IMG/VR virus record: IMGVR_UViG_3300018080_000059
Location: 1 to 40,996 of that record
Origin: a virus
Reading direction: 5' to 3' (one strand)
Length of the DNA stretch: 40,996 nucleotides
Within the stretch, counting starts at the first letter, position 1. Each line of letters starts with the position of its first letter. The notes beneath the pieces are model-generated. The model searched no databases, was not told where the DNA came from, and was given only the letters and a program-made list of their open reading frames with translations. The position numbers were made by a program, and so were the translations under genes. Below are positions 5,611 to 40,996 of the stretch, piece by piece.

Positions 5611-6399
5611 TTATACAGCCTCCTCGACAACGATTCTGATACTGTAAGCATCATAAAATGAATTAATCAATACAGGTTCACTTGCAAATCTGACATATCT
5701 TGTTAATTCTGATTGATCGTCGGATATTTTTAAATCAGGATCTAAATGAAGATAAAACGGTTTATGTTGCCCTACATCCCTGAAAAGTTCATTTAGATTA
5801 TCTCTTTCTGCTTTTGTCATATATTCGAGATCAAAAGTCCATCTATCTCGCTGAGTTTTGACATCAAACCAGGGTTCGTTTCCATCGGAAACTACTCTTT
5901 CAGAATCGTCTATTTTTGCATCTTCCCATCCGAATTTAACGTCAGTTGATTCGAAATCAACAGATTCTCCAAGAAAAAGATTTCCTATTTCGAGGAAATT
6001 CTCAATATTGTTTGAATCTGATATTAAAACCTGCCAGAACCTGCATGATCCTATATATGGAGACATAAATTTTGTGATTAAAGATTCATGCCAATCAATT
6101 GTCTCATCAACTTCTGGAGTCGTCCAGTTTCCATCATTGCAGCCCTGTAATTGAATTGAAGCTTTTGGGGAAAGCTGTATTCCTCTCTGTTCATTAACCA
6201 GAAAAAATGCTGTTGGCCTTACCTGATAACCACAATCAAACCTTAAATATTGACTTGTAAGACTTCCTTCGGCGGATCTCCATGATTTAGACCTGAAAGG
6301 CTGAATTATGTTTTCTTTTGGAAAATTTGTTTGTTCCGAGCTTGCTATTATTGGGCTCGCATCTTCTAAAAAATTAACATACGAAAAAGCTACACTCAT
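5611..6399 (-). CDS. Putative distal tail protein (Dit-like) with galactose-binding-like N-terminal half, 262 aa
   Basis: This is the first gene after the tape measure, the position of the distal tail protein in siphoviruses. The N-terminal half (about 1-150) contains the pattern SKSWRSAEGS...YLRFDCGY...FFLVN, resembling an F5/8-type C or discoidin beta-sandwich. The C-terminal part (about 170-262) has WTFDLEYMTKAERDNLNELF followed by KPFYLHLDPD, typical of tail-tip proteins that sit on the tube end. It overlaps the tape measure stop by four bases (ATGA). Function is inferred from position and fold pattern. Confidence 0.55.
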   Translation of the reverse strand: MSVAFSYVNFLEDASPIIASSEQTNFPKENIIQPFRSKSWRSAEGSLTSQYLRFDCGYQVRPTAFFLVNEQRGIQLSPKASIQLQGCNDGNWTTPEVDETIDWHESLITKFMSPYIGSCRFWQVLISDSNNIENFLEIGNLFLGESVDFESTDVKFGWEDAKIDDSERVVSDGNEPWFDVKTQRDRWTFDLEYMTKAERDNLNELFRDVGQHKPFYLHLDPDLKISDDQSELTRYVRFASEPVLINSFYDAYSIRIVVEEAV

Positions 6400-9300
6400 G
6401 CAACAACCCTCGCCAGATAACCGTCGTCCTTCATTTCAAGTAATACTTCAGCAAGTTTATGTTTCCCGACCTGTAAAGGAACAGATATTGTTTCCGGCCC
6501 GCGTGGCCCGAAATTACCTGTAACTATAGTTTCCCAGAGCTTTCGTTGCTGATCTCTATTCAATACCATTTCATCTTTATTTGCCCTGATTAATGTTCTA
6601 TCTCCGAATCTATCTCTGCCAGCGATTAAACCATATTGGGCTTTTTGAAGTTTTTCCATTCTGCCTATAATTCCGCCATATTTGAAAAGACCTCCAACAA
6701 CAGGAATACTTGAACCCACGGATTTAATTGTTCCGCCAACGACAGGAACTTTGCTGACCAGGCCTCCGACAATTCCGCCGCCTGTAACTGTTTTCGCTAC
6801 TTCTTTTAATCCATCCAAAATAGATTTAAAAACATCGCCAACATCCTTAAAAACGTCGCCGATATCTTTCATAATATCCGCAAAATTTCCGAATATTTCA
6901 GCAAATTTTAATTTTACACCTTTTATAAATGCCCGGATAATTCTGGGAACTCCCTGAATAATAGCAGTTATAAATGCGCCTGCAACCCTCAGCCAAAAAA
7001 CAGGATCTCCCATTGTTATCAAAATGCTATTTGCCAGAGCATCAACAACTGCACTCCAGAATGTTGGGTCACTCATTATATCAACAATTGCTTGCAAGAA
7101 TGCCGGCATTGCATTTCTGAGAGCTGAAATAATTCTCGGTATGGCCCGGACAAGTTTATCAATAAATATCGGTATATTTTCAGCCAGCATAATAGGAAAA
7201 TCAACAAGAAATCCGACGAATTCATCCATTTGTTTTCTAAATTCTTCTGTTGATTTTCCGAAGAAATCAACAAACATTCCAGCGGCTTCACCCCCTGCAG
7301 GCCCGGCGATAGCTGTTGCTGCTAACTGTGCAAGAGCTTTTGCAACCTCTTTTCCGCCTGCTGCTCCTCCGGCAACAGTTCCAGCTACTACTCTTTCCGC
7401 AGTTGCGCCTCCAAATTCTCTTATCTTAAGAGCAATTCTGGCTTTAGCTTCTGAGGTTATTTGTTTTTCTTTCTCTCTGATTTTTTCAAGTTCTTTTATA
7501 TAGTCTCTTTGAATTTCAAGATTATTTTTGTTTGCCTCAGCGTTTTTCTTTGCCGCATCTGTAGCTAACTCTTGTGCGTTATATATTTTAAATATTTCTC
7601 CTGTAATATCTTTCATTACTGATTCAACGACTCTCAAAGATTTTTCCTGAGCTTCTGTATTTGCAGTCATCTTTTCCGTTGATTTTTTTGCTTCATTTAT
7701 TTCAGCCGCATATGCCGTTGAAATAATATTAAATTTTGAAGCTATTTTTGCTATAAATGCACCCGCGTTTGCAAATGCCAGTCTTACAGATACAATTGCT
7801 TTTTTAATATAAATTACGGTCTTTAAAAAGCCTTTAGCCATACTTAATATTGCTAAAGTAACAAGTCTTACAGAAATTAATAAAGCGCCTTTTAGAAAAT
7901 TACCAATGGCTAAAAATTCTATCTTAACAGCCCTAATTATTGGCCCTGTTTCCTCAAACCATTTAACGAGATCCTGCCATATTGTACTAAATATTTTAGT
8001 TTTCTTCTCTATCAATACAAAAGCTTTATATAACAAATAACATGCAGCAATTACCAATCCTATTTTAATAGCGATTATAGCAAACGGAGCAATTAATATT
8101 AGAGCTTGTTTTAAAACAAAACTCATTCCAGCACCAATTAATCCCAAAACAGAATTAATTGTTAATCCAGTTGTTGAAATAGTTAAAAAAGCTTTCTGTA
8201 ATGTCGCCGCCGCAAGTGTGCTTACAGAAGCTAATTTTTTAGTTATAAGCGTACAATTTGCAACCTGTCCGGCAAAATTCTGTATGTAATTATTTTTCAA
8301 AACTATGTTTAATGCTTTTATCGAAGTTGTTACAAAAACAATAGCAAAAGCCCATTTGAAAAATATTCCTGTTGCCTGTAAAGCCCTTCCGCTTAACGCG
8401 GTTAAAAATCCGCCTACTGACAAAAGAGATTTAGACGTTTTTTCCAGGGTTTCAAGTAAATATGTCCATGCTACATTAACTTTTTGTTCAATTAACTCTG
8501 CACCTATTCCCATCGCGGTATTTATATTTGTCCATGCAACTTCTTGTCTCGCTAATTGTTGTTTTATTGTATTTGCTGTTTCGGCTACAAGGCCATTGAG
8601 TACAGCTGATTTTTCAAGCAATGCATTATATCTTATCATTATTTGTTCGCCGAATGCCAGTTTTTCAAAATGTCCATGTGCCGCTTTTCCTGCTTTTGTG
8701 GTAGCAATTGCATGTTGAGTTAAATTAACACCCATATTTTGAAGCATCTGGGTTTGTCCATTAAGTGCCTCTAATACAGCTAAAGTAGATTGAAACAAAT
8801 CTTTATGATTCGCTTTTGCTAAAGAAGAAATTACGGGAAGTAATGATTTCATCTGTGCTTTTGTTAATCCAATAGAATCACCAAATCTTAGAAGCTCTGA
8901 AACACTTCTCTGTGTAACTTCAATATTAAATCTTTGAGTTTTTGAAAATTCATCAACAATAGCGTTCCATTCTTCAAATGTTCCTGTCATTCCCTGTGAA
9001 GATTCATTAAGGCTCTCAACAATAAATTGAAATGATGCAGTTGTTTCTTGTAGCTGTGCCATTTCATCAACGCTTTTTTGCATGGCTGTAACAAGACTTG
9101 TTCCAATAGCATAAATTAAATCTCCCAGAAGAGTTAAAATTTGTCTTATCAAAAGCGCTAATCCGCCGAGAGCCAATGTTAAAGCTATTAATCCGCCTCC
9201 GGCCATTTGAATCATAATATTGTCGTTTTCTATTAAATGAAGGCCCAACAAACTAAAAATACCTGCCGCTGCTGATGCTCTTGTTACAAGGCCAAATAAA

Positions 9301-10184
9301 CCTTTTTTAAATAGTTCAGTATGCTTTGCACCGTCAACAAATGATTTTCCGACGCTTTTAGAAATTGTCCATGTTTTTCGCATTACATTTGCACTACTAT
9401 TTAAAACATAATTTGTCTTAGACATTGCATCTGCAAATCCAAAAACAGCGCCCTGTGTTTTTACAATACCCTTTCTGAACAATTCAGACATTTTCGGGAA
9501 TTTTGTTCCCATATTTACGACATGTCTTTCTAGTGTCGAAAATTTAAGACCGAGATTAACGACAGAATCTTCAACAAACTTAACAACTTTTGCCGAAGAA
9601 CTCAGGGCGACAAACGCTCCTCCCAGAAGACCAATTTTTGTTATAATATCGACAATAGCTCTTCCAGCCGCATTTATTCCAGTAATCTCTAAGAATGCAC
9701 CTGTAAAAGAGCCATATTTTTCTTGTACCTCATCGATTGTGTTTCCAAGAAATTCAACTTTTGTTTTAAATATATCTATGTTTTTTGCAATGGTTAAAAA
9801 TAAACCACCTGTTTTTGAAAAGCCCTTAAATTTTAAAAGTATACCGATAATTGTTAAAAATTTGATTAATTTATTATAATCAAAATTAATAAGTATATTA
9901 TAAAATGTCTTTACAACTTCAGTGGTTTCATTAAAAGCATCTGCAACACGTCTTATTTTTTCACTTAATTTTGTTTGTTCTTTTGCTGTAATTTCTGTTG
10001 ATTTTGCTACCTGCTTTTGCACCTGTGCATTAGTCTTTTGAGACTTATTCATTTTCTCTAAAAGATCAATGTGCTTTTCTTGAGCTTCAATAAGTGCAAG
10101 TAGTTTTTCGTCAATTGCGTCAAGTGCCTTTGATGCCCTGTCCTGCGCCTCAATAATCCATTCAATTCTTAGATCTTCTTCCAT
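6396..10184 (-). CDS. Tail tape measure protein, 1,262 aa
   Basis: This is the longest single-piece ORF. It begins with a helical segment rich in Lys, Glu and Gln (about 1-95), has several long hydrophobic stretches (near 330-370, 600-640 and 690-740) and Ala/Gly-rich helices, and ends with a Gly/Val-rich region (near 1145-1180). This is the usual tape measure architecture. It sits directly downstream of the G/GT chaperone pair and upstream of the distal tail genes. At about 1.5 angstrom per residue the helix would span roughly 190 nm, predicting a long flexible tail. Its ATG lies inside the end of the frameshifted GT frame. Confidence 0.9.
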   Translation of the reverse strand: MEEDLRIEWIIEAQDRASKALDAIDEKLLALIEAQEKHIDLLEKMNKSQKTNAQVQKQVAKSTEITAKEQTKLSEKIRRVADAFNETTEVVKTFYNILINFDYNKLIKFLTIIGILLKFKGFSKTGGLFLTIAKNIDIFKTKVEFLGNTIDEVQEKYGSFTGAFLEITGINAAGRAIVDIITKIGLLGGAFVALSSSAKVVKFVEDSVVNLGLKFSTLERHVVNMGTKFPKMSELFRKGIVKTQGAVFGFADAMSKTNYVLNSSANVMRKTWTISKSVGKSFVDGAKHTELFKKGLFGLVTRASAAAGIFSLLGLHLIENDNIMIQMAGGGLIALTLALGGLALLIRQILTLLGDLIYAIGTSLVTAMQKSVDEMAQLQETTASFQFIVESLNESSQGMTGTFEEWNAIVDEFSKTQRFNIEVTQRSVSELLRFGDSIGLTKAQMKSLLPVISSLAKANHKDLFQSTLAVLEALNGQTQMLQNMGVNLTQHAIATTKAGKAAHGHFEKLAFGEQIMIRYNALLEKSAVLNGLVAETANTIKQQLARQEVAWTNINTAMGIGAELIEQKVNVAWTYLLETLEKTSKSLLSVGGFLTALSGRALQATGIFFKWAFAIVFVTTSIKALNIVLKNNYIQNFAGQVANCTLITKKLASVSTLAAATLQKAFLTISTTGLTINSVLGLIGAGMSFVLKQALILIAPFAIIAIKIGLVIAACYLLYKAFVLIEKKTKIFSTIWQDLVKWFEETGPIIRAVKIEFLAIGNFLKGALLISVRLVTLAILSMAKGFLKTVIYIKKAIVSVRLAFANAGAFIAKIASKFNIISTAYAAEINEAKKSTEKMTANTEAQEKSLRVVESVMKDITGEIFKIYNAQELATDAAKKNAEANKNNLEIQRDYIKELEKIREKEKQITSEAKARIALKIREFGGATAERVVAGTVAGGAAGGKEVAKALAQLAATAIAGPAGGEAAGMFVDFFGKSTEEFRKQMDEFVGFLVDFPIMLAENIPIFIDKLVRAIPRIISALRNAMPAFLQAIVDIMSDPTFWSAVVDALANSILITMGDPVFWLRVAGAFITAIIQGVPRIIRAFIKGVKLKFAEIFGNFADIMKDIGDVFKDVGDVFKSILDGLKEVAKTVTGGGIVGGLVSKVPVVGGTIKSVGSSIPVVGGLFKYGGIIGRMEKLQKAQYGLIAGRDRFGDRTLIRANKDEMVLNRDQQRKLWETIVTGNFGPRGPETISVPLQVGKHKLAEVLLEMKDDGYLARVVA

Positions 10185-10973
10185 GCTTAACCGGCTTCGT
10201 TTTCTCTTTCAAATCCTTATCAAAATATTCCGAAGAAACTGTCATAAAAATTTTAAATGCCTGAAAATGGAGTGATCTGATTTCCCGGGGTGAAATAGAG
10301 ATTCCCAGCTCTTTTTTAGCCTTGAAATCTTGAAATTTTGTCCATAATTCCCGGGAAAAATCAGTAATAAATCCTTCCGGACATTCAAAAATGACTTTAT
10401 CTTCGATCTCATATTTATATTTTACAGTACCGATTTCAAAAACAAAAGAAGATTTTTTTTGCCCTTTTACATTTCGATAATACTGGCCCTTACAATTACG
10501 TGCTTTTTGTTGATCCGGTCTGCATTCATCGCAATTATAAGCCTTGTATGCTCCGGTTTCGACATACCATGCAAGGCATCTTAATTTTTTCTTTCTTCAT
10601 CTGTCAGACTATTTGACGCATCAAGAGCATTCGTAATTTCTTCATATAATCCTTTAAGGTGTGGAATATAATACATTTCTTCCATTGTCTTGATGTCTCT
10701 TTCCTCTTCTCCATCAATAACGCTTACGTTCTTTATGTCTTTGACCTGTGCGTTAATCATTGAAAGTTGAGCCTTACTATATCCGAGCCCTTTTTGTGTC
10801 CGGAAACCTTTTCTTTGCTTATCAATCATCATGTCGGTCATTTTGTCATGGTCTGCCTGAGAAATATACTTAATCATGCAGGAAACTCGATCTTTTTTTG
10901 AACAAGCTTTATTGTCCATAAATTCAGGTTCGAAATAAACCCAATCTTTCTGAATATTAACTTTAATTGCCAT
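10162..10973 (-). CDS. Tail assembly chaperone GT, -1 frameshift product of about 270 aa
   Basis: The frame minus one to the G gene is open from the end of G to a TGA at 10162-10164. It has no usable start codon of its own (its first in-frame ATG is close to the end), so it is best explained as a frameshift extension. Slippage on A AAA AAT (10590 down to 10584) joins 130 residues of G to about 140 more, beginning LRCLAWYVETGAYKAYNCDEC. In lambda-like phages G and GT are made in a fixed ratio and load the tape measure for tube assembly. Here the extension overlaps the tape measure start by about 23 bases, as expected. Confidence 0.75.
10581..10973 (-). CDS. Tail assembly chaperone G (130 aa)
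   Basis: This small, charged protein sits between the tail tube and tape measure genes, the conserved position of the tail assembly chaperone. It starts at an ATG behind a GGGGG Shine-Dalgarno that directly follows the terminator-like hairpin after the tube gene. Its last codons, AGA AAA AAT TAA, contain the slippery heptamer that leads into the GT frame. No family motif stands out in the sequence itself; the assignment rests on position, size and the frameshift. Confidence 0.7.
   Translation of the reverse strand: MAIKVNIQKDWVYFEPEFMDNKACSKKDRVSCMIKYISQADHDKMTDMMIDKQRKGFRTQKGLGYSKAQLSMINAQVKDIKNVSVIDGEEERDIKTMEEMYYIPHLKGLYEEITNALDASNSLTDEERKN
10584..10590 (-). promoter_or_regulatory. Slippery heptamer A AAA AAT for -1 ribosomal frameshifting
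   Basis: Read on the minus strand, the heptamer is in the correct phase for the G gene (codons AGA AAA AAT) and is immediately followed by the G stop codon TAA. Back-slippage of both tRNAs by one base re-pairs on AAA AAA and continues with TTA into the 140-codon GT frame. Confidence 0.75.
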
Positions 10974-10988
10974 GAATTACCCCCTCAC

Positions 10989-11095: not shown

Positions 11096-12265
11096 TTAGA
11101 CGAATCCTAAAAAGATTTCGTTCAAACCGGTTGACCTGTGAGCCCGAACGACGGCATTTTCAACCAGGATGTTATCTTCTTCGCCGCGTGGCAGTTCAGC
11201 AAAATAACAATTTGGCATATAAACACCCATGCATTTTCCAGCCTCATAGTCTCCGGATGAATCCTTTTTCCCTGCAACGAGTACAAAAGCAAAATCTGTC
11301 AGATCCTGATATTTGTCCTCATTGTCCACGTTTGCGTCGTCAGCATATAGCATAATTGCTACTTCTGTGCTTCTGGCACCAACGCGAGAGCTTACTTTTC
11401 CGCTTCCTTCTTTTGCGGAAAGAACCTCTTTAATTTCGTTTGAAATTGTAAGAGTTCCAGATTTAAAATCAACCTTTGTTCCTGCTATCCAGCATTCGAC
11501 ATCAAGACCGACCAGGCCTTCACCCGACATCAAAGATGGAGAATGCGGAGCAACACCATTGATATAATCTGTTGACAGACCGCTAAAAGCTACTTCAGCT
11601 TTTATGATCTGCCCGGTTTCAATTGTTAGAGTAAGAGTTTCGACAAGCGCGCCGATAGCTCTTTCACGGTTTTTATTTCCATGATAGAGCCCGAAAGTTC
11701 CGTGTTTATGGTCTGAATTTTCGCCTTTATAAAGAATACATTTTCCGAGATTCACAGAAGCTCCGGGAGCATTGTCAAGTGCAGGTTCAATAGTCAAAGC
11801 ATCAGATGCTATTGATTTTATTGGCCTTATTGCGTAATCATTTACGCTATCTTTAACGAGCAAAAATTGACCAACTTCGAAATTAGAACCTTCGCCAGTG
11901 TCAACATTTATGACAGTTGTCGTTGATGCTGCCACGGTGTCATATTCTGTCGCATTGACAGTTGTTCCTCCGAGAGCAGTTTCAACAATAGCGTCGAAAT
12001 CAGGAGCTGTTCCCTCTGTCCCTGAATGCCTCCATTCAAAAGAACAGCCGCCTGATGCTTCCTGTAAGCCATGTTGACCTTTAGCGCGGCCTATATATTC
12101 GCTTATTAAATCAGAATCCAGAACTTCCTTTGAAGAGTCAACGGATGGCCCTTCAGAAACTGCGAAATACCCGTCAGTGTCACTGGTAGGTAAAACAGCG
12201 GTTCCAGGTGTGGTTTCATGTTTGAAATAAGCGATTGTCGATTTGGTATTAATTCCAATTGACAT
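11096..12265 (-). CDS. Major tail tube protein, 389 aa
   Basis: The N-terminus (KSTIAYFKHETTPGTAV) and the internal block with EASGGCSFEWRHSGTEG and LTLTIETGQ have the look of siphovirus tail tube proteins, which form stacked hexameric rings. It lies between the tail terminator-like gene and the G/GT chaperones. An insertion near residues 100-165 (VAASTTTVINVDTGEG... with VGQFLLVKD) may be an extra beta domain on the tube surface. A GAGG-type Shine-Dalgarno precedes the ATG, and a terminator follows the gene, as expected for an abundant virion protein. Confidence 0.8.
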   Translation of the reverse strand: MSIGINTKSTIAYFKHETTPGTAVLPTSDTDGYFAVSEGPSVDSSKEVLDSDLISEYIGRAKGQHGLQEASGGCSFEWRHSGTEGTAPDFDAIVETALGGTTVNATEYDTVAASTTTVINVDTGEGSNFEVGQFLLVKDSVNDYAIRPIKSIASDALTIEPALDNAPGASVNLGKCILYKGENSDHKHGTFGLYHGNKNRERAIGALVETLTLTIETGQIIKAEVAFSGLSTDYINGVAPHSPSLMSGEGLVGLDVECWIAGTKVDFKSGTLTISNEIKEVLSAKEGSGKVSSRVGARSTEVAIMLYADDANVDNEDKYQDLTDFAFVLVAGKKDSSGDYEAGKCMGVYMPNCYFAELPRGEEDNILVENAVVRAHRSTGLNEIFLGFV

Positions 12266-16667: not shown

Positions 16668-16981
16668 GATTTTACCTCACTGTTTAAATTCATGGTCTTT
16701 TCAACGGTCTTATTCTTTAACGAGTGCCGTTTACTTACTCGCGGTTTTTTGCCTGTCTGAATATTTCTCAATTCTTTTTCGAATCCCTTAACAGGCTGAG
16801 GGATTTTATTGTCTTCGTGTGAGGGTTCATAATAAATAACCCTGATCTCTCTTGAGGGAGAAATTACGGCATGAATTATTACCGGTTTATCCAGACTTTT
16901 GATATGTTCGCATATCTGTAAATCTGGATCGCCGTTTTCATTCCTTGCCTTAAAATGCATTAAATGTGTAAAACCTGCCAT
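16664..16981 (-). CDS. Unknown protein next to major capsid, 105 aa
   Basis: The N-terminal half has a compact alpha/beta look (MAGFTHLMHFKAR...DKPVIIHAVISPSREIRVIYYEP). The C-terminal half is basic and probably disordered (TGKKPRVSKRHSLKNKTVEK). The ATG sits behind a GGAG that directly follows the A/T-rich hairpin straddling the capsid stop codon. Family not recognised; a head accessory role is only suggested by position. Confidence 0.45.
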   Translation of the reverse strand: MAGFTHLMHFKARNENGDPDLQICEHIKSLDKPVIIHAVISPSREIRVIYYEPSHEDNKIPQPVKGFEKELRNIQTGKKPRVSKRHSLKNKTVEKTMNLNSEVKS

Positions 16982-16992
16982 AATAACTCCAA

Positions 16993-17015
16993 ATAATACT
17001 TAAATTAAGTATTAT
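16993..17015 (-). terminator. AT-rich stem-loop spanning the capsid stop codon
   Basis: ATAATACTT and AAGTATTAT form a perfect 9-bp stem with a five-base loop. It covers the last codons and TAA of the major capsid gene and is followed on the minus strand by TT and the GGAG Shine-Dalgarno of the next gene. It may protect the capsid message end or reduce expression of the downstream gene. The stem is AT-only in most positions, so strength is modest. Confidence 0.4.
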
Positions 17016-17844
17016 AAAATTTATAAAGTCTCAATTCATCCATAAGTTTCCAATCAAAAAGCATGTCACTTCTGATTCTTACAGATGGAACTTTTGTTGC
17101 CGGTTCAAGATCCATTTCTTTGTAGCTTGCTCCTTTTTGAACTGCGAGAGTCATAAAAGAAGGATGCCAGAAATAAGCTTCCTGAGCCCCGAAAAGATTG
17201 GATTCAATTATTTTGAAACCATAAACTTTTCTCTTAATCATTCCATCAATAAGTGGAGAATCGCCTTCTGTTGCAAAATATTCTTTTGAAATTACCTCAT
17301 TTTCATCAAGCAAATTTTTCATGTAAGTAGATCCCATGAAACAAACTCTTGTGCCGTCGTTTGGCACATTTGAATCATTCAGGGTTTTTCTTACGGTGGT
17401 AAAATCAGTTATTGCGATTGAAGCGTTTCCGCTGTCATCATTGGTCGTGGCTACCATTCCAGAAATCAGACTTTCTTCCATCTTTTTCATGATTTTATAT
17501 CTGATTTTGTTCCTTACCTGATCCTGATAGGCAGGATTTGAAATGTAACGAGCCCAATCTGTAATTTTAATCGATTTTACAGCTTTTTTCTGTATTATCA
17601 GATCAATATTACCGACAGCGGTTTCCCCATCGTTATAGGGTTGATTATCACTGGTTAAAATTTCAGCGTCAGTATCAGACGTAACCTCTGGAATATGAAC
17701 AGTATCGCCCCATGTGTTAACTTCTCCTTCATAATCCCTGTTTACATACTGAGAAACGCCCAGCTCGACCTCAAGGTCTTTATAAAACTTTGACGCCCAT
17801 ACTTCTTTGATTATGGGTGAAAGTTCAGCTTTTGTCATTAACAT
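17005..17844 (-). CDS. Major capsid protein, HK97-fold type, 279 aa
   Basis: The N-terminal segment (IIKEVWASKFYKDLEVELGVSQ followed by YEGEVNTWGDTVHIPEV) and the block KSIKITDWARYISNPAYQDQVRNKIRYKIMKKMEESL are typical of major capsid proteins that start without a large delta domain. A separate scaffold gene lies directly upstream, as expected. The ATG at 17844 is preceded by GGAGG with seven-base spacing, the best ribosome site in this region. It assembles the icosahedral shell around the scaffold. The HK97-fold statement is from family knowledge. Confidence 0.85.
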   Translation of the reverse strand: MLMTKAELSPIIKEVWASKFYKDLEVELGVSQYVNRDYEGEVNTWGDTVHIPEVTSDTDAEILTSDNQPYNDGETAVGNIDLIIQKKAVKSIKITDWARYISNPAYQDQVRNKIRYKIMKKMEESLISGMVATTNDDSGNASIAITDFTTVRKTLNDSNVPNDGTRVCFMGSTYMKNLLDENEVISKEYFATEGDSPLIDGMIKRKVYGFKIIESNLFGAQEAYFWHPSFMTLAVQKGASYKEMDLEPATKVPSVRIRSDMLFDWKLMDELRLYKFYNT

Positions 17845-17865
17845 GGTAATTCCTCCGTGTAAGTT

Positions 17866-18603
17866 TTAAGAAAGCTTACCTTCAGAATTTAATTGCCTAA
17901 TTCTTTTCTGGTAAGCCGGATAATCTTTAACTCTTAGCTCCTCCAGATAACCTGTAGGATCTTTTTCGAAAGATAACTGCTCTTGATCTTTTGGCAAACC
18001 AGGAGTATTCGAATTTACAGGAACAATCCTTTTTTTATAAAAAAAATGGTTAAATTCAGGTTTGTTCTGATGAATGTCGAAAAATCTATCAATACCAACA
18101 ATTTGGCCGGTATTTTGATCTCGCTGAATCATTTCTGTATCGCCAAGTGCTAACAATTGGTCATAATGTTCACAGCCCCTGCGCACAGCTTCTTTTGCAG
18201 CAAGATTCATGACATCCCTTTCAAACACTTCATTTTGAATCTTCTGATTTTCTTCCTTTAATTCTTTATTTTCCTGCTCCTTAATTGCCAAAAGCTCCTC
18301 AGTGTTTTTTGTTTCCTTCAAATACTTTTCCTGAAATTCTTTAGCTTTTCTCTTGTTAGAAGTTGACTCATTAAACATACGGTCATTTCTGATACGCAGT
18401 TGAGAGTTTTCCTGTTCAAGAGCGCCAATCCTTTCATTTAAAGTTTCAAGTGAAACCTCTTTCTTCCCATCGTTTTGACCGTTCACGGGTTCATTCTGGT
18501 CATTTTCTCCGGGATCTTGCGACTTCTCGCCTTCATTTGGTGCCTTCGCACCGGCGTTTCCCTCTGCATTCGCATCAGGTGCCTGATTGCCTTCTAGTGT
18601 CAT
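17866..18603 (-). CDS. Capsid scaffold protein, 245 aa
   Basis: The first 50 residues are a low-complexity acidic region (GNQAPDANAEGNAGAKAPNE and similar). A long heptad coiled coil follows at about 50-150 (LNERIGALEQENSQL...LAIKEQENKELKEENQKIQ), and then a basic-acidic tail. This is the standard composition of a phage scaffold, and the gene lies immediately before the major capsid gene. A GGGGG Shine-Dalgarno precedes the ATG. It would direct shell curvature and leave the procapsid during maturation. Confidence 0.8.
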   Translation of the reverse strand: MTLEGNQAPDANAEGNAGAKAPNEGEKSQDPGENDQNEPVNGQNDGKKEVSLETLNERIGALEQENSQLRIRNDRMFNESTSNKRKAKEFQEKYLKETKNTEELLAIKEQENKELKEENQKIQNEVFERDVMNLAAKEAVRRGCEHYDQLLALGDTEMIQRDQNTGQIVGIDRFFDIHQNKPEFNHFFYKKRIVPVNSNTPGLPKDQEQLSFEKDPTGYLEELRVKDYPAYQKRIRQLNSEGKLS

Positions 18604-39686: not shown

Positions 39687-40996
39687 CTATGCAGCCGGTA
39701 AATCAATTAAATAAATACCAATATCGTTAACATATGCTTTTTCGAGTCCTGTCGTTCCTACAGGATAATCAAAGTCAACACGAAATTTTCCAGATTCTCC
39801 CTGTTGAACGAATTTAACTCTTATATTATCTGTCCCTGAAGGTGGTTCATTGCCCGGGGTAAAAGTAATTGTGATTTCTCCGCTTCCAGGCGTGTCATGG
39901 TTCCAGTGAGTTTCTTCTATTTTTGGTGTCCAGCCTCCGTCATTAACTTCAACCGATATTATATCAGCGGCAAGATTTGTTGAAGGAAATTGAAATTCAT
40001 CCTCTGATCCCGTTCCTGAAAAATATTGATAATCTGTCCAGATATATTGGCTTATGGCTTCAGAAGCAAATTCATGCCAGTGTTTTGTTGATTTATCCTG
40101 ATCGTTTGAAAAACTATAAGTAATTGTTGGATTGGCCCTGTCTGTAGCTGTCTCAATAAGTTCAACGCATCCAGTAAATTCAAAATAATAATCAGTTGAT
40201 AATGAGTTTTTGTCGCTTCTACAGGTTAATGTCACAGCATGAGTTTCAGCGTCTAATCCCTGAATAACGATTATGTCTTGATATATAGATTCGAGAGAAT
40301 ATAAATCATAAACAACGTCAATATTCCCAGATGTATTAACAACATTAACGTCAATCTTTCCTGAATTGCTGCCTCTCTCAACATAAATCATTATAGCTGT
40401 GCAATCGTCCTCAGTTGTCCATTCAACTTTAGGTTGAGTTCCACCTCCAGATTGTCCTTGAACCGATCTATAATTACCCCCGAAATTTTGAGCCTGGGTT
40501 GAAACAGATCCCCATGAATTTGAACTTCCATTAGTGAAAGTAAATCCAGCGTCTGAAACGTCTGATTTGATTTCTCTATTTCTTGCTTTTCCGCTAGGAG
40601 CCGGTAAGCCTGAAGAATCGTTTGCGATGTAAAACATTTTTTCAGCCTGGTCTATGTCATAAGCAGTGCATTCATATCTTGATGCAGCTCTCGGAAAATC
40701 AATTGCTTGTATCCCGTCATCGTTAGAAACAAACAACGTGTTATTGCTAAACATAAGACCTGAAAAACCGCTGATAATGTCATCATGAAGAAATATATAA
40801 ATATCTGAGTTTTCATCAAAAAGTAATCTGAACCAATTTCCATCATATGCCATATAGTCAGTTGAATGGTTTTTTCTTTTATAATGTCTTAAAGCCGGTT
40901 CACCGCCTCCAGATGCCTGGATTGAAGCAAATACATCGAGATCCTGGCCGAAACAAACAGTATTAATTCCCGCCGTTGAAGCAGATGCCTGCTCAA
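39687..40996 (-). CDS. Giant tail fibre / receptor-binding protein, C-terminal part
   Basis: This frame enters from the right edge and is the in-frame continuation of the gene that starts at 3424. Residues beyond the shared 123 bases read KNHSTDYMAYDGNWFRLLF, so the ATG at 40851-40853 is internal and not a separate gene start. The 395 residues after the left edge of the map end in LIDLPAA and a TAG. The sequence is beta-rich: a propeller-like segment (NNTLFVSNDDGIQAIDF), a disordered Gly/Ser stretch and a C-terminal sandwich (YQYFSGTGSEDEFQFPSTNL, GSGEITITFTPGNEPP). Receptor binding is inferred. Confidence 0.8.
   Translation of the reverse strand, partial: EQASASTAGINTVCFGQDLDVFASIQASGGGEPALRHYKRKNHSTDYMAYDGNWFRLLFDENSDIYIFLHDDIISGFSGLMFSNNTLFVSNDDGIQAIDFPRAASRYECTAYDIDQAEKMFYIANDSSGLPAPSGKARNREIKSDVSDAGFTFTNGSSNSWGSVSTQAQNFGGNYRSVQGQSGGGTQPKVEWTTEDDCTAIMIYVERGSNSGKIDVNVVNTSGNIDVVYDLYSLESIYQDIIVIQGLDAETHAVTLTCRSDKNSLSTDYYFEFTGCVELIETATDRANPTITYSFSNDQDKSTKHWHEFASEAISQYIWTDYQYFSGTGSEDEFQFPSTNLAADIISVEVNDGGWTPKIEETHWNHDTPGSGEITITFTPGNEPPSGTDNIRVKFVQQGESGKFRVDFDYPVGTTGLEKAYVNDIGIYLIDLPAA
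40874..40996. repeat. Right copy of 123-bp direct terminal repeat
   Basis: This is identical to bases 1-123. See the left copy for interpretation: the repeat closes the map within the fibre gene. Confidence 0.95.

Follow-up and report, generated by a model that had tools for sequence, protein, structure and literature searches.

Two tail assembly chaperones, a short form G and a longer fusion G-T, are very probably made from a single start by programmed -1 ribosomal frameshifting in the viral record analysed here, a stretch of 40,996 bases that we refer to in its entirety as the window. The genes concerned stand in the order tail tube, G, -1 frame T and tape measure, with a G-phased slippery sequence close to where G terminates (Table 1). 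Most ribosomes would read G and terminate at its TAA, giving a protein of 130 aa; in a minority, the tRNA-Lys on AAA and the tRNA-Asn on AAU would slip together, one base back to AAA AAA, and translation would run through 140 further codons of the -1 frame to give a G-T fusion of ~270 aa. If Asn enters the chain ahead of the slip, the junction peptide of this fusion would be ERKNLRCLAWYVE. On the lambda model, the G portion would coat the tape measure protein and the T portion would recruit tail tube subunits, and it is from this model that we infer chaperone functions for G and G-T.

The record is probably a complete genome because its two ends are identical, consisting of a 123-base direct repeat at positions 1-123 and 40874-40996. 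The G+C content of the window is 36%, and its structural genes, comprising a terminase, a coat protein (P22-type Pfam match), head-tail genes, the tail tube, G and the tape measure, lie on the minus strand.

Table 1. Positions of the tail chaperone genes, the proposed slip site and the adjoining features in the window.
Feature	Position	Strand	Basis
Tail tube protein (Phage_tube_2), directly upstream of G	11096..12265	-	Pfam PF18906, E 7.4e-18
Shine-Dalgarno-like GAGGGGG of G, 6 nt upstream of ATG	10980..10986	-	Sequence
G, tail assembly chaperone short form (putative), 130 aa	10581..10973	-	ATG ORF between tail tube and tape measure
Slippery heptamer A AAA AAT, G-phased, proposed -1 slip site	10584..10590	-	Sequence; relatives with XXXYYYZ at the same position
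TAA stop of G, adjoining the heptamer 3'	10581..10583	-	Sequence
Predicted hairpin GCCUUG...CAAGGC, possible frameshift stimulator	10541..10577	-	RNA fold
T, -1 frame extension, 140 codons + stop, without own start	10162..10584	-	ORF; C-terminal domain aligned with relatives
G-T fusion, ~270 aa, via -1 slip (predicted)	10162..10973	-	Inference from parts
Tape measure protein, 1262 aa, directly downstream	6396..10184	-	PHROG tail / tape measure matches, E 9e-7 and 8e-5; length; position

Anatomy of the site and coding signal in the -1 frame

The 3' end of G reads GAA AGA AAA AAT TAA, with zero codons between the heptamer and the stop. The initial annotation had placed a phased slippery heptamer directly before the G stop, as the sequence AGA AAA AAT TAA confirms; its phrase "one codon from the stop" was right about the adjacency but wrong about the spacing. 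The -1 frame is open from position 10596, two codons 5' of the heptamer and after a TGA, and its stop at 10164-10162 falls ~20 nt within the tape measure ORF, which starts at 10184. It was thus correctly described at the outset as a frame open for 140 codons that ends just inside the tape measure gene and lacks a start. The overlap bounded by the G stop and the upstream -1 stop measures ~15 nt, and the heptamer is the sole phased XXXYYYZ in it. At codon 24 of G there is a second phased A AAA AAA, where the -1 frame is shut after 7 codons, so that a slip would only truncate G.

The main genes scanned contained ~120 phased XXXYYYZ heptamers, a single one of which led into a -1 frame of 140 codons, all others giving 40 or fewer. 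An open frame of 140 codons appeared in 1 of 20,000 first-order Markov sequences of matched composition. Scored against the phage's own codon usage, the -1 frame reached +0.142 log-odds per codon, compared with 0.06 to 0.34 for the true frames of known genes and at most 0.075 for wrong frames; the other two frames across the T region scored -0.07 and -0.01. In the -1 frame, which counts 145 codons, ATG first occurs at codon 117 and TTG at codon 128. Because of this rarity, codon usage and lateness of start codons, chance and an independent start are poor explanations for the frame.

Searches of Pfam, PHROG and NCBIfam assigned neither G nor T to a family of known function, and structure models of the two proteins, of middling confidence (pLDDT 67-69), had no PDB match. 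Pfam matches of G to Prismane and Ntox8 fell below the cut-off and were judged to be due to chance, and PHROG 11314, a family of function unknown, matched T and one relative weakly. Profiles were also built from the relatives described below, to which both proteins show weak sequence similarity: the G profile matched window G at E 3.4e-4 (best of 2000 shuffles, 0.049), and the profile of all relatives' T proteins matched residues 82-127 of window T at E 0.012 (best of 2000 shuffles, 0.47), although a narrower T profile did not detect it. The alignment of T C-termini contains one invariant glycine, which the window shares (K-E-L-G), and the basic tails are alike. On these alignments, a helical domain common to the relatives is likely to make up the C-terminal half of T, preceded by a Cys-rich extension peculiar to the window phage. 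This extension occupies the first ~70 residues of T (10375-10584, minus strand), has a C-x2-C...C pattern that is absent from the relatives' T domains, and is possibly metal-binding.

Recurrence of the arrangement in uncultured relatives

Direct searches of viral contigs and cultured phages with G and T returned no relatives, nor did the tail tube and the tape measure as single queries. A terminase search yielded 80 viral contigs, nine of which had a recognisable tail tube; an alignment of all nine tubes was too divergent for scanning, and a four-tube alignment was used instead, which retrieved 80 loci in related uncultured viral contigs. The genome contigs searched contained no relative, and cultured phages searched with the relatives' tube and T proteins gave no match. 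The 2.6 kb downstream of each tube was scanned for an ORF of at least 60 codons ending with a phased heptamer and a -1 frame that continued for 45 codons or more past it. Run on lambda as a control, the scan recovered the known site GGGAAAG; it missed HK97, whose annotated frameshift lies outside the strict criteria, and so is not exhaustive. One locus (L098) was left out because its heptamer leads straight into the tape measure gene and is likely an ordinary gene junction. With it and duplicates removed, 55 distinct loci were obtained, the window included.

Most of the 80 related contigs share the order G, -1 T and tape measure. In each of the 55 distinct loci, a -1 ORF of ~70-185 codons follows and overlaps the G ORF, and a phased heptamer stands close to where G terminates: AAAAAAG in 19, GGGAAAC in 13, AAAAAAA in 9, GGGAAAG in 7, AAAAAAC in 3, AAAAAAT in 2 (L090 as well as the window) and unusual sequences in the other two. 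Elsewhere in the relatives' G genes, phased heptamers occur at 0.7% of codons. The initial annotation had named the lack of a conserved -1 frame in related genomes, together with a lack of fusion peptides, as grounds against its reading, and 55 distinct loci conserve that frame; its attribution of the site to the siphovirus G/GT tail chaperone frameshift is supported by the gene order, the coding -1 frame and this recurrence. The relatives' T proteins sort into several families, of which the largest comprises 43 members.

Where a canonical heptamer is missing, the -1 overlap is mostly retained, and several such loci have GGGGGAA or a similar sequence beside the stop. The GGGGGAA near the G stop of L121, L122, L175, L176 and L109 does not conform to XXXYYYZ; it is the "fivetwo" motif known from SEA-PHAGES genomes (PRFect paper). 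For L109, the heptamer listed by the scan, 36 codons from the stop, is probably not the true site, GGGGGAA being likelier. At L169:3988-4585, G and T form a single continuous frame of 199 codons, and a fusion there needs no frameshift. In IMGVR_UViG_3300006527_000002 (L177 and L090, ~16,800-18,600), a second tail-tube-like domain lies in a 946-codon ORF downstream of the first tube gene and is followed by a G with A AAA AAT TAG. An extra gene of ~480 codons, nearly the size of the tube gene, stands between tail tube and G at L008:17822-19255 and L009:7879-9315.

Proposed slip site, neighbouring stop and competing explanations

The final T of the heptamer, which had been singled out as a variation, is indeed rare at the slip site (2 of 55 loci), whereas an Asn codon in the A site is common (18 of 55; AAT in 2 and AAC in 16). 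In E. coli, slippage is far more efficient at A AAA AAG than at A AAA AAC, a poor slip site (review PMC5009743), and the last codons of A AAA AAT and A AAA AAC are read by the same tRNA. We therefore expect a modest slip rate at the window site, which would fit a low proportion of G-T of the lambda type, where G:G-T is 30:1 (review PMC5009743).

Both the adjoining stop and a predicted hairpin starting 6 nt 3' of the heptamer may slow the ribosome at the slip site. The fold of positions 10600-10540 had an energy of -12.0 kcal/mol (z -1.94), a result that is modest on its own, given that 9 of 200 shuffles were as good and that z was -1.05 on another stretch. In the relatives, the 50 nt from 4 nt past the heptamer were more structured than shuffles (mean z -0.95; 22 of 55 below -1.5), and in one subgroup several members keep a stem-loop with differing stem sequences. 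The latter observation comes from single folds; a consensus structure calculated on the automatic subgroup alignment had an energy of 0, probably as a result of stems being shifted by a base or two. No Shine-Dalgarno-like stimulator was found upstream of the window heptamer, and no Rfam family matched the window.

The heptamer lies 0-1 codons from the G stop in 47 of the 55 distinct loci. The count takes the heptamer nearest the stop, and many overlaps are short; placement was therefore assessed in those 26 distinct loci whose overlap spans no fewer than 6 codons, 19 of which lay at 0-1 codons where 3.9 were expected under uniform placement; these loci are related rather than independent, and the nominal significance is too strong. 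Published mean distances from heptamer to stop are 36 nt in the set of Xu et al. and 26 nt in the SEA-PHAGES set (PMC10885494), against 0 nt in the window and 0-3 nt in most of its relatives. Across the loci compared, stop adjacency is a habit of the lineage, a mild variation not peculiar to the window phage; the initial annotation was right that it departs from the textbook arrangement, but within this lineage it is the rule.

Such spacing could mean that the stop is essential, in a stop-dependent form of the programmed frameshift, a sub-case compatible with the main reading, in which the slip follows translocation, during slow termination, when the tRNAs occupy the E and P sites. The excess of loci at 0-1 codons speaks for this, but in most loci a sense codon intervenes between heptamer and stop, which puts the stop outside the A site when the slip occurs. 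The spacing may instead be fixed by the conserved start of T, and the kinship of the supporting loci weakens their count. We regard the stop-dependent form as rather unlikely. Tentatively, and against our own expectation, the neighbouring stop might be a working part of the signal in this lineage, slow termination allowing the slip and the G:G-T ratio following termination speed, unlike in lambda.

Explanations that dispense with a ribosomal slip fare worse. RNA polymerase might add a base on the A run, after which T would be read by ribosomes that do not slip; the site has six consecutive A, and several relatives have seven to nine. However, transcriptional slippage has in published cases required a run of more than seven A (PMC3711429), GGGAAAC or GGGAAAG occupies the position in many relatives, where there is no homopolymer and polymerase slip is not expected, and the 3' RNA structure of the relatives is of the kind that stimulates ribosomes, leaving transcriptional slippage very improbable. 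We give still less credence to T being a gene of its own, reached by reinitiation or coupling once G has terminated. The G stop does sit right where the -1 frame begins, an arrangement found in coupled genes, but ATG, GTG and TTG are absent from the first 116 codons of the frame, and the relatives keep at this position a phased heptamer that coupling would not need. An assembly error, by which an A lost or gained in the homopolymer split one continuous G-T gene, could draw on the A6 run and on the single frame of L169, yet the two-frame arrangement recurs in dozens of independent contigs, those with GGGAAAC sites included, and such an error is hardly to be credited. The anatomy of the site, the coding signal in the -1 frame and the retention of that frame among relatives together make a programmed -1 ribosomal slip at A AAA AAT the best explanation.

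Relation to known recoding systems and significance

The likeness to lambda G and G-T is one of architecture. In both, the genes lie between tail tube and tape measure, the -1 slip site (a proposed one in the window) is an XXXYYYZ heptamer near the end of G, and T ends just inside the tape measure gene; the lengths are also similar, with 140 aa for G and 144 codons for T in lambda against 130 and 140 in the window. The systems differ in the heptamer, G GGA AAG in lambda and A AAA AAT here, and in its distance from the stop, which by the same scan is 5 codons in lambda and 0 in the window. No sequence similarity of window G or T to named families was detectable. Tail chaperone genes are in general more alike in order than in sequence. 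The same architecture and presumed role are found in HK97 gp13/gp14 and, more widely, among frameshifted tail chaperones of long-tailed phages.

E. coli dnaX (A AAA AAG) likewise combines an A-rich heptamer with a downstream hairpin. Its frameshift site also has an upstream Shine-Dalgarno stimulator (PMC3711429), whereas none was seen in the window; the last codon of its heptamer is Lys AAG rather than Asn AAU, and its product is a truncation, in contrast to the longer fusion predicted here.

The window site is almost certainly a fresh example of known lambda-type recoding rather than a new system. With it, an unannotated chaperone pair and the whole uncultured lineage carrying that pair are added to a recoding event long known from lambda. 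Because none of the lineage's T domains is named by function in the family libraries searched, annotation pipelines will miss them. The tight spacing of slip site and stop across the lineage also constitutes a natural data set for the question of whether a neighbouring stop tunes bacterial -1 frameshifting.
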